From the NCBI RefSeq assembly GCF_900100335.1, contig NZ_FNFE01000002.1, positions 1 to 64,000 of the forward strand: a stretch of DNA of 64,000 bases, read 5' to 3'. Source of the stretch: Natronorubrum texcoconense. Lineage in GTDB: Archaea > Halobacteriota > Halobacteria > Halobacteriales > Natrialbaceae. Both the position numbers and the translations under genes were made by a program. The notes beneath the pieces were generated by a model, which saw nothing but the letters and a program-made list of their open reading frames with translations, made no database searches and was not told the DNA's origin. This document shows positions 28,310-34,935 of this stretch, in pieces (position 1 is the first letter of the stretch; every line of letters begins with the position of its first letter).

Positions 28310-28630
28310 TCAATTATCCGGTTCGGACTCGAGCGGGAGCCACCAGAGGTGCCATCGATCCTCGACGCGATGGTGTTTCAGTATCCCGACTTCGACCATT
28401 GTGGAGAGTTGTTCGAACATTTCGTCGACCGAAACGTCGTGCTCGTCGGCCAGATACTGCGTGTTCACGACGGGTACCGGCGCGGTGCGGACCGATTCGA
28501 CGACCGCTTCGGAAGATATCCGACCGCCGTCGGTGGACTTCCGGTCGGGGCCCGTCTCCGAGTGAGGGAGTCTGTCGGATGGCACAGCGTTCGTACTCGC
28601 CGCATCGTGTTGAATCCCACGTGGCGACAC
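28310..28630 (-). CDS. Small winged-helix-like protein
   Basis: A 106-residue protein. The first 40 residues are polar and probably disordered. Residues about 43-100 resemble a winged helix: VESVRTAPVPVVNTQYLADEH, SVDEMFEQLSTMVEVGILKHHRVEDRWHLWWL. This pattern (helix, helix, recognition helix, hydrophobic wing) suggests DNA binding, for example a small transcription regulator of the ArsR/MarR type. No target visible. Confidence 0.55.
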   Translation of the reverse strand: MSPRGIQHDAASTNAVPSDRLPHSETGPDRKSTDGGRISSEAVVESVRTAPVPVVNTQYLADEHDVSVDEMFEQLSTMVEVGILKHHRVEDRWHLWWLPLESEPDN

Positions 28631-28806: not shown

Positions 28807-28940
28807 TCGTTCGCATTCCATCTTTTCCCACGGGAATAGATAAACCCCTCGAAACGCTCGAGCCACCCCTGACGGTAACACGCACAGTCCTCACGAACCC
28901 ACATTCCAGTAGTTATAAGTTAATATCCAGACAAGACCAG

Positions 28941-29022
28941 TATGGAAGCTACGACTCCGATCCGCCGCAGGGGGCCTGCGCCGAAATGCCCCGGGTGTAC
29001 CAGCACCCGAGACGTGGCTTCC
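28941..29022 (+). ncRNA. Candidate structured RNA 1
   Basis: A TATA box TTATAAGTTAAT at 28913-28924 points to transcription starting near 28941. From there a 10-bp stem GGAAGCTACG (28944-28953) pairs with CGTGGCTTCC (29013-29022) with a single G-U. Within it are two further hairpins, GCAGG/CCTGC (28967-28979) and CGGGTG/CACCCG (28992-29009), giving a compact three-armed fold of about 80 nt. It does not match tRNA, 5S, SRP or RNase P RNA as far as I can tell. An open frame of 27 codons inside it is probably fortuitous. Confidence 0.4.
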
Positions 29023-29089
29023 AAGCGCTAGCTCGAAGCCATGATTACGTTCCGACCACGTCGATATAAACGTCCCGCAAGCCAGTCGC

Positions 29090-29290
29090 ATCGCCTTCGG
29101 AGTACACCGCTCACAGCCAACGCTGGGACCCAGCATGAGTGAGGAAGAGCCTCACCCGTCAGTGTTGGGTCGGTGTCCCACCTTCGACGGTCAACTCGCG
29201 TGGGTCATCACGATGGGCCCGCACACCCACAACGCACAGCCCTGTGGCTGTCGGCTCAGCGCCCGTCAGATCAAGGCGTTGCTGTAGCCG
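29090..29290 (+). ncRNA. Candidate structured RNA 2 (possibly H/ACA-type guide)
   Basis: Downstream of a TATA box GATATAAAC (29063-29071). ACAGCCA (29113-29119) can pair with TGGCTGT (29245-29251), enclosing GCTGG/CCAGC (29122-29134) and a perfect GTGAGG/CCTCAC hairpin (29139-29155). Several ACA triplets lie at about 29222-29240. A two-hairpin H/ACA guide RNA is one possibility, but guide pockets were not matched to rRNA, so the class is open. Confidence 0.35.
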
Positions 29291-29364
29291 CACGCGAGGC
29301 AGACCACCATTTTTCACATCAAACCCACGATTCTCGACTCGAGTCCAGTCTAGAAACCCTTTAG

Positions 29365-29519
29365 TCCGTCCGAGCGAAAGCGCTGGTGGGAAGCGCACGG
29401 CCGCAAATCTGACTGTGCCGTCCACTCTTTCGGACGGCTTGGGATTGCGGAAGTGCAACGGTAGTCGGATGGCCGACTATCGCACAATCGAGCGGTCAGT
29501 GCGGTTCCTATCCTCACCA
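29365..29519 (+). promoter_or_regulatory. Structured 5' leader of rpsO
   Basis: The 150 nt before the ribosomal protein S15 start hold consecutive hairpins: CCGTCC/GGACGG with an 8-nt loop at about 29429-29448, and a perfect 7-bp TAGTCGG/CCGACTA at about 29462-29480. Most haloarchaeal genes have no leader, so a folded one suggests either a processed upstream RNA or control of S15 translation. Confidence 0.35.
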
Positions 29520-34194: not shown

Positions 34195-34935
34195 CTACTT
34201 GCCGGCTTCCTCGACGTACGACGGCCGCTCGGCGTACGCGATCGGATCCCGAACGCCGACGTTCTGGAACGCCTGTAGCCGGAACGCACACGAGTCGCAG
34301 GTCCCACAGGCTGGTTCGTTCTCGCGGTAACAGCTCCAGGTGTGTTCGTAGGGGACCTCGAGAGCAACCCCTCGCTCGGCGATCTCCGTCTTCGAGTCCT
34401 CGACGAACGGGGCCTCGATCGAGATCTCGGTCTCCGGTTTCGTCCCGACGTCGACGACCTGCTCGAACGCGTCGAAGAACTCGGGCCGGCAGTCCGGATA
34501 GCCCGCGAAATCCTCGCTGTGGGCGCCGATGAAGACGGCCTCGCAGTCGTTGGCCTCGGCGTAGGAGACGGCCATCGAGAGCAGGTTCGCGTTCCTGAAG
34601 GGAACGTACGAGGAAGGGATCTCGTCGCTGTCCATATCCGCGTCTTCGACGGCCAGCTCGTCGTCGGTGAGACTCGAGGCCCCGATCTCGGCGAGGTGGC
34701 CGGTCTCGATCCGCAGGAAGTCGGTAGCGTCGAGCTCGTCGGCGAGTCGGCGGGCACACTCGAGTTCCCGGTCCTCCGTTCGCTGGCCGTAGGAGGTGTG
34801 CAGCGCGTAGATCTCGTAGCCGCGGTCGCGAGCCTCATAGGCGGCGGTAGCGCTGTCCATGCCCCCCGAAAGGAGGACGACGGCGCGTTTCGAAGTCGAT
34901 TCGCCAGTCGTGGGAGCGTCGGTGGTATCAGTCAT
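34195..34935 (-). CDS. queC: 7-cyano-7-deazaguanine synthase
   Basis: A 246-residue ATP-dependent amidotransferase/nitrile synthase that converts 7-carboxy-7-deazaguanine to preQ0, the precursor of archaeosine in tRNA. The ATP-pyrophosphatase P-loop SGGMDS is at 23-28, the substrate region YVPFRNANLLSMAVS is near 105, and a zinc site is formed by the C-terminal cysteines in WSCYRENEPACGTCDSC. It follows queE by 6 bp, the last of the three pathway genes read right to left. Confidence 0.95.
   Translation of the reverse strand: MTDTTDAPTTGESTSKRAVVLLSGGMDSATAAYEARDRGYEIYALHTSYGQRTEDRELECARRLADELDATDFLRIETGHLAEIGASSLTDDELAVEDADMDSDEIPSSYVPFRNANLLSMAVSYAEANDCEAVFIGAHSEDFAGYPDCRPEFFDAFEQVVDVGTKPETEISIEAPFVEDSKTEIAERGVALEVPYEHTWSCYRENEPACGTCDSCAFRLQAFQNVGVRDPIAYAERPSYVEEAGK

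Follow-up and report, generated by a model that had tools for sequence, protein, structure and literature searches.

The gap between the tRNA-Ala gene and rpsO of Natronorubrum texcoconense, judged by comparison with related sequences, is occupied by one conserved RNA element, and not by the two non-coding RNAs proposed in the initial annotation. This element is probably the cis-acting 5′ leader of a bicistronic mRNA, a virus-related translational switch that was adopted for zinc microproteins. Sequence comparison gives the family, its structure, its start codon, its two pairings in distant families, its gene linkage and its relatives in viruses.

Haloarchaea are regarded as users of leaderless mRNAs, and the number of natural RNA switches known from archaea is small. 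A passage of a 2021 paper gives the fluoride riboswitch of Thermococcus kodakarensis as the only archaeal one determined experimentally (PMC8241225). With a class-wide leader that has strong covariation, a testable strand swap and a link to one of the first archaeal antisense RNAs to be reported, cultured strains would allow direct tests of how translation is controlled in lysogeny and in many orphan zinc microproteins. In the open PMC papers searched, this family of RNA leaders was not found described.

Organization of the locus

The window is a stretch of 64,000 nucleotides (contig NZ_FNFE01000002.1, positions 1 to 64,000). The features of the element and its surroundings are listed in Table 1.

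Table 1. Features between the tRNA-Ala gene and rpsO, in positions of the window.
Feature	Positions	Strand	Remarks
Sense TATA box TTATAAG	28913-28919 (core 28914-28918)	+	first base of TATA 30 nt before P1
Predicted transcript start	near 28940-28944	+	predicted from the sequence
Leader	about 28942-29040	+	P1 around P2 and P3, then P4, up to the AUG at 29041
P1 5′ strand GGAAGCTACG	28944-28953	+	pairs with 29013-29022
Hairpin P2 (GGGGC...GCCC)	28971-28991	+	conserved GAAA ahead of the 3′ strand
Hairpin P3 (CGGGTG-TACCAG-CACCCG)	28992-29009	+	in the alignments, family loops are YUNR-enriched on one of the two strands
P1 3′ strand CGTGGCTTCC	29013-29022	+	complementary also to 29035-29043
P4 region, variable hairpin	29023-29034	+	weakest helix
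Start-codon region GAAGCC-ATG	29035-29043	+	able to pair with 29013-29021
ORF1, 33 codons (MITFRPRRYKRPASQSHRLRSTPLTANAGTQHE)	29041-29142	+	opened by the conserved AUG
A/T core, codons 9-10 of ORF1	29064-29070	-	candidate antisense TATA box
ORF2, 50-aa zinc-ribbon-like protein	29135-29287	+	overlaps ORF1 by 8 nt
S15-Halobacteria leader RF03143	29386-29456	+	Rfam 76.4 bits; before rpsO

The stop codon of ORF1 overlaps the start of ORF2 within ATGAGTGA. With these two ORFs, the gap is not gene-free, as it had been described, and most of the second proposed RNA (29113-29251) is coding sequence within ORF1 and ORF2 (29041-29142 and 29135-29287). The leader of the neighbouring ribosomal protein gene rpsO (S15-Halobacteria, 29386-29456) is a separate element. 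Behind the tRNA-Ala gene, the next ORF on the minus strand (28310-28630) is winged-helix-like by eye, with no Pfam match.

Family and distribution

With the 671-bp gap as query, matches were found in 82 of 100 genomes at E≤0.001 (own genome included), partly through the S15 leader, and positions 94-286 of the gap recur several times in many of the 82 matching genomes. BLAST finds three close copies in the own genome. An exact core pattern is present in at least 118 stretches of named genomes, and all 80 of those listed are from genera taken to be Natrialbaceae; this family is on record for Halostagnicola, Halopiger, Natrinema, Halomontanus and the Haloterrigena plasmids.

Two covariance models were built, R1 from 43 sequences and R2 from 98. 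The early sequence set was selected by the exact core pattern, so that P3 and the P1 3′ strand were fixed in it, and R1 carries this bias. R1 matches 86 of 125 Natrialbaceae genomes and 26 of 29 genera, with at least 24 copies in each of eight genomes; the copy numbers per genome are lower bounds, at most 24, 10, 8 or 15 candidates having been scored in each. At E≤1e-4, R2 has matches in 220 of the 391 class genomes sampled, spread over 72 of 86 genera; the own genome has six copies at this threshold, three of them of the type of this locus. In a sample of the phylum, R2 matches 20 of 196 genomes at E≤0.001, all in the order of the source. The locus itself scores 114.6 bits with R1 and 111.4 bits with R2 over its full length, as a member of both training sets. 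The element has no match in Rfam 15, the search that the initial annotation had proposed, and at the gathering score it is not a known Rfam family.

Some copies have unusual surroundings. In one genome (G389), leader copies start 2 to 718 bases from the contig start (contigs C2, C8, C9, C25, C49, C56, C59 and C60), as if near-identical repeats broke the assembly. Copy L112 has a partial second leader in tandem (2004-2083 and 2094-2245). This partial tandem and an opposite-strand match in copy L221 were left out of the counts, with L112 kept among the 68 representatives of the swap test described below.

Conserved structure of the leader

The structure was assessed in two alignments, A4 with 98 sequences and A5 with 73 matches, mostly distant and including one partial match on the opposite strand. 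Both were fitted to the covariance model, which biases them toward the structure. Two-sided changes are present at 30 of the 32 pairs in A4 (0 of 500 shuffles) and at 31 of the 32 in A5 (0 of 500 shuffles). The fraction of paired cells in A4 is 89.2%, compared to 78.5 in shuffled alignments and at most 52.0 in slid versions; the corresponding values for A5 are 85.6%, 61.0 and at most 47.9, and the A5 covariation score is 0.519 vs. 0.160. All six pairs of P2 have two-sided changes in A5. The weakest helix is P4, with 62.9% (A4) and 64.3% (A5) of cells paired. Among the sequences with the exact core pattern, two unpaired segments are strongly conserved, GAAA ahead of the P2 3′ strand and AGAC between P3 and P1.

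The initial annotation had read from this locus a 10-bp stem with inner hairpins (28944-28953/29013-29022). The stem is present, with one G-U pair, and covaries class-wide, so that conserved pairing in relatives is found for the first of its two candidate RNAs through covariation across the class. A conserved structured RNA is located here as proposed, although it would be the 5′ leader of a two-ORF mRNA and not a free-standing RNA. A 29-codon short peptide within the leader was also considered and is ruled out, because the copies have indels in this stretch that are not divisible by three.

The single-sequence fold of this leader is unremarkable (z −1.25, with 23 of 200 shuffles equally good), and the case therefore rests on comparison. 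The orthologue in a relative (G003) has identical P1-P3 and a replaced P4. In most relatives a further hairpin, P5, is predicted around the A/T core of ORF1. In the present copy the P5 stem is broken by mismatches, with the A/T core retained, and one Cys of the CPxC motif in ORF2 is a Phe, while the G003 orthologue has the Cys. With both of these losses, this copy may be drifting.

The loops of P3 vary in a particular way: some resemble the reverse complement of others (UACCAG here, CUGGUA elsewhere), as if flipped between palindromic arms. The U-turn motif YUNR is found in these loops, on either strand, in 59 of 100 Natrialbaceae copies (31.3 in shuffled loops, maximum 45) and in 50 of 72 distant copies (22.0, maximum 35), counts that exceed all 2,000 shuffles.

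Two mutually exclusive pairings

Because the bases ahead of the AUG are similar to the P1 5′ strand, the P1 3′ strand has two alternative potential partners, the P1 5′ strand and the AUG region. For 68 representatives, the start region is predicted to pair with its own P1 3′ strand at −10.04 kcal/mol, compared to −7.17 kcal/mol with swapped strands (0 of 20,000 permutations); for a control stretch (+4 to +17), the energies are −5.56 (own) and −4.81 kcal/mol (swapped). The 51 representatives of distant copies alone give −10.29 vs. −6.86 kcal/mol (0 of 20,000 permutations), which strengthens the switch. The 13 Natrialbaceae representatives alone give −9.96 vs. −9.72, with 1607 of 20,000 permutations as low. 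With a nearly invariant P1 3′ strand in this family, own and swapped pairings are indistinguishable, and this comparison adds nothing to the case for the switch. By this sequence evidence, two exclusive and conserved pairings, one of them at the initiation region, are present class-wide, outside the Natrialbaceae-only comparison. Matched changes are seen in individual copies, with GGUCUUC/GAAGACC in L265, GUGUC/GACAU in L225 and GGGUUC/GAACCC in L268. Some copies (L068, L079 and L092) have a start-region pairing that is worse with their own strand than with swapped ones.

Folds were also calculated with either partner blocked, the energies being model values at 37 °C and not for molar salt. 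Their means are −56.5 and −56.7 kcal/mol for the Natrialbaceae (n=99), and with the P1 5′ strand blocked the start region pairs with the P1 3′ strand in 95 of these 99 copies. For the 72 distant copies, the two states have −57.5 and −55.5 kcal/mol, and the start region joins the P1 3′ strand in 52 of the 72. The two states are thus predicted to be about equally stable. At this locus, the fold with the hidden AUG is the lower of the two.

Promoter and candidate antisense promoter

The first of the two TATA boxes in the initial annotation (TTATAAG, 28913-28919) is at the same place relative to P1 in most Natrialbaceae copies: a TATA-like motif, defined by a broad set of 5-mers, has its first base at exactly −30 from P1 in 89 of these 98 copies and lies within −33 to −24 in 95 of 98 (1 of 98 in a control window). 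Of the 72 distant copies, only 28 have such a motif in this interval (control, 5 of 72).

Conservation continues past the AUG, at fixed spacing, to about codon 13. Among the 97 Natrialbaceae copies, an A or T occupies positions +26 to +28 (counted from the AUG) without exception, position +29 in 99% and position +30 in 98%; in the 72 distant copies the A/T fractions at +26 to +30 are 0.83, 0.96, 0.50, 1.00 and 0.74. Codon 10 of ORF1 is AAA in 96 of 99 cases, and elsewhere AAA and AAG are about equally used (6 and 6 in ORF1, 14 and 16 in the zinc ORF2s).

Read on the other strand, this A/T core is TTTAT-like, and a TATA-like 5-mer, again from a broad set, is found there in 94 of 97 Natrialbaceae and 35 of 72 distant copies. 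The antisense core is located some 27 nt ahead of the AUG, a spacing that fits the antisense start in phage phiH1, and it is a candidate antisense TATA box. The arms around the core covary in A5, so that the core may have a role in a hairpin (P5). As the sense TATA box of a second RNA, which had been proposed for 29064-29070, the core is rejected because its position is fixed to the AUG of ORF1 and it is flanked by covarying arms; it sits in codons 9-10 of ORF1, and nothing supports a promoter role for the second RNA.

Start codon, ORF1 and ORF2

In the interval 8-45 nt downstream of P1, an ATG is present in 98 of the 100 matches from Natrialbaceae (46.8 expected by shuffling) and in all 72 distant matches (29.4 expected). 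It occupies a single alignment column (98 of 100 in alignment A2 of the Natrialbaceae; 72 of 72 in A5) and is the annotated start of a Halalkalicoccus SWIM protein.

ORF1 is closed in 93 of 99 Natrialbaceae cases, with a median of 42 codons and none below 20. In 50 of the 93 closed cases ORF2 starts at −4, and in 18 at −8. A zinc motif is found in 70 of the Natrialbaceae ORF2s, a count in which the choice of ORF2 favours zinc-motif ORFs where several starts compete. The consensus of 42 zinc ORF2s is PxCPxCGxPVxxVTxxGPxTxxASPCGC. Third-position GC is 0.44 for codons 2-16 of ORF1, 0.59 for codons 17-40 and 0.78 for the zinc ORF2s. By its sequence, ORF1 looks unlike a typical protein gene, and its status as a protein is weakly supported.

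The leader lies just upstream of 27 of the 34 zinc genes in four genomes (3 of 3 in the own genome, 3 of 5, 10 of 14 and 11 of 12), those of the 12 searched for which RNA coordinates were at hand, and the other seven have no listed leader; the lists may be incomplete, and the third leader copy of G003 in this count was placed from a BLAST match. Two further genomes (G002 and G010) have one zinc gene each and no model match to the leader.

The structure predicted for the zinc protein contains short strands and a helix, with a mean pLDDT of 75.2. It has no fold match in the PDB at E≤0.001 (best 0.88), and the best PDB match of its sequence profile, at E 0.0011, is a stretch of CTCF zinc fingers. 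Eight downstream proteins were compared with Pfam and NCBIfam, with no match above cut-offs. Some ORF2s are instead HalOD1-like or of another zinc type. In Halostagnicola (copies L068, L079, L131, L148 and others), the leader stands before HalOD1-like proteins, some with a zinc ribbon. In Halopiger djelfimassiliensis (copies L062, L082, L100, L115 and L137), the zinc ORF2 is replaced by long open frames, and several N stretches interrupt some of these. Among 79 downstream ORFs of distant copies that were scanned (of 85 listed), six are SWIM, four PadR and two integrase.

Relatives in viruses, plasmids and phage phiH1

R2 matches five of eight virus records at E<1e-4 (5-kb regions, and 50 kb of phiH1). 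The five are the betapleolipoviruses SNJ2, HRPV9, Halfgib1, Harhisp1 and HHPV4, with matches before integrase or accessory genes (E 9e-9 to 7.5e-5). The conserved AUG is an annotated start in SNJ2, HRPV9 and Halfgib1, but not in Harhisp1 and HHPV4. These leaders differ in having other downstream genes and diverged P1-P3 sequences. BJ1, Humcor1 and phiH1 have no R2 match, 50,000 of the 58,072 bases being covered for phiH1. In viral contigs the exact core pattern has 0 matches, and none of 12 stretches with a looser pattern has an R2 match at E≤0.01. No phage record was found by blastn; the virus copies were reached only through a repressor protein and R2.

On plasmid pHTUR04, the leader (R2 E 1.7e-10) is divergent from a gene annotated as PhiH1 repressor. 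In the distant set, the longest divergent ORF belongs to the transcriptional-regulator PHROGs 2440 in 26 of 71 cases and 18890 in 13 of 71, two sets that may overlap. The Natrialbaceae copies are different from phiH1 in this respect, such a repressor gene rarely adjoining them: of their 84 divergent ORFs, references were obtained for 75 and 69 were scanned, with phrog_2440 in one of the 69 and 18890 in none.

Without an R2 match in phiH1, the link to this phage rests on architecture and on the starts of record of its transcripts T1 and T4. Both have a TATA-like box ahead of the start and a divergent repressor or immunity gene. In T4, pairing in P1 begins at the very base given as the start of record (34556); with P2 and P3 inside this P1, the leader (34556-34690) folds into the three-way junction of the family, with two hairpins after it (z −5.76). 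The P1 3′ strand of T4 can also pair with a stretch farther downstream (−11.8 kcal/mol), but T4 has no AUG where the family has one. In T1, whose leader measures 151 nt, P1 begins one base after the start of record. Its P1 3′ strand can form 5 bp across GAGC-AUG (−7.2 kcal/mol), and ACAAA is found at +26 to +30; the inside of P1 is folded differently from that of the family. An antisense RNA of phiH was reportedly described by Stolt and Zillig in 1993. This RNA, Tant, starts one base before the AUG of T1. According to a passage of a review, Tant opens T1 to cleavage by host RNases (PMC4284463), and the phiH antisense RNA is counted among the first reported in archaea (PMC6210493). At the present locus, the spacing from the TATA box to P1 agrees with the arrangement of T1 and T4, the start being a predicted one.

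Proposed mechanism and alternative explanations

From these comparisons we infer control of translation, coupling of the two ORFs, an antisense trigger and adoption from a virus. With the P1 3′ strand on the P1 5′ strand, the AUG would be free; with the same strand on the AUG region, it would be hidden. As long as P1 holds, ORF1 would be translated and ribosomes would reach ORF2 via the overlapping junction, and once P1 yields both ORFs would be off, the P1 fold thus presumably being the on state. ORF1 would serve as a translational relay and ORF2 would be the controlled zinc-ribbon microprotein. The element appears to be related to the early-gene leaders of temperate haloviruses and plasmids (T4 and T1 of phiH1, the integrase operon of SNJ2), and it would have been adopted and multiplied in the Natrialbaceae.

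By analogy with Tant on the T1 leader, the most likely trigger is an antisense RNA started near the AUG, with a chance a little short of even if the switch reading is correct. A broader proposal is tentative. Halobacteria and their temperate viruses and plasmids may share an undescribed class of bistable leaders, a virus-type lysogeny device with a start-codon swap and an antisense promoter built into the first codons. The Natrialbaceae would have domesticated this device and amplified it until dozens of loci carried it, so that their zinc microproteins would form a network, each under antisense control and separately addressable.

A true riboswitch is rather unlikely. A small molecule or ion bound by the P1-P2-P3 junction would stabilise P1 and free the AUG, and the three-way junction with its strongly conserved unpaired GAAA and AGAC, the exclusive pairing of P1 and the start codon and the balanced energies are consistent with this. 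However, the downstream genes that can be named are regulators, integrases and zinc proteins and belong to no metabolic pathway, the P3 loops have YUNR on either strand and not a fixed sequence, and in phiH1 a leader of this type is accompanied by an antisense RNA.

The state of the AUG could instead be set by a protein (a zinc-ribbon, repressor-like or host RNA-binding protein), for example in feedback. The linkage to small zinc-binding proteins in Natrialbaceae and to SWIM finger proteins elsewhere would fit such a leader, which we consider improbable: the controlled proteins are of differing kinds whereas the RNA architecture is common to all, and feedback by one protein family is therefore ill-suited.

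It is highly unlikely that the element is an independent trans-acting small RNA that merely precedes the genes. Its own promoter signal and compact fold would be expected of such an RNA, but the conservation runs through the AUG to about codon 13, the two ORFs stand downstream, and the fold involves the AUG region. The chance is slighter again for a mobile DNA repeat or recombination site with inverted repeats acting as DNA. The high, dispersed copy number, the presence on plasmids and near integrase genes and, in one genome, the positions near contig ends would suit a repeat of this kind; against it are the G-U-tolerant two-sided changes, the fixed orientation between TATA box and AUG, and the fading of similarity outside these limits. 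An H/ACA guide RNA at 29113-29251, suggested by the initial annotation from ACA triplets and inverted repeats, can practically be dismissed, since this stretch is ORF1 and ORF2, ACA triplets (for example at 29221-29240) fall within ORF2, and no H/ACA family of Rfam matches even at E≤10. Among H/ACA and C/D guides over 28880-29350, the same E≤10 search gave only a sub-threshold match to sR9, on the other strand (E 2.2). The region 29105-29260 folds mildly better than its shuffles (z −2.09, 6 of 200 as good).

Comparison with other known systems

The preferred reading, a leader that switches translation of a bicistronic mRNA, has parallels elsewhere. The copA/copT-tap-repA system of R1 and the Inc RNA-repY-repZ system of ColIb-P9 reportedly also have a structured leader and a short first ORF that is coupled by overlap to a second, together with U-turn loops and an antisense RNA over the leader. 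The haloarchaeal leader differs from these systems in being archaeal, in the P1 swap that would hide the AUG and in its many chromosomal copies, and its antisense RNA is only predicted. Bacterial translational riboswitches and the T. kodakarensis fluoride riboswitch likewise have two exclusive pairings, one of which hides the initiation region; in contrast to them, the haloarchaeal leader has no known ligand and no Rfam match. The S15-Halobacteria leader next door is similar as a haloarchaeal 5′ leader and different in having its own Rfam model and in standing before rpsO only.
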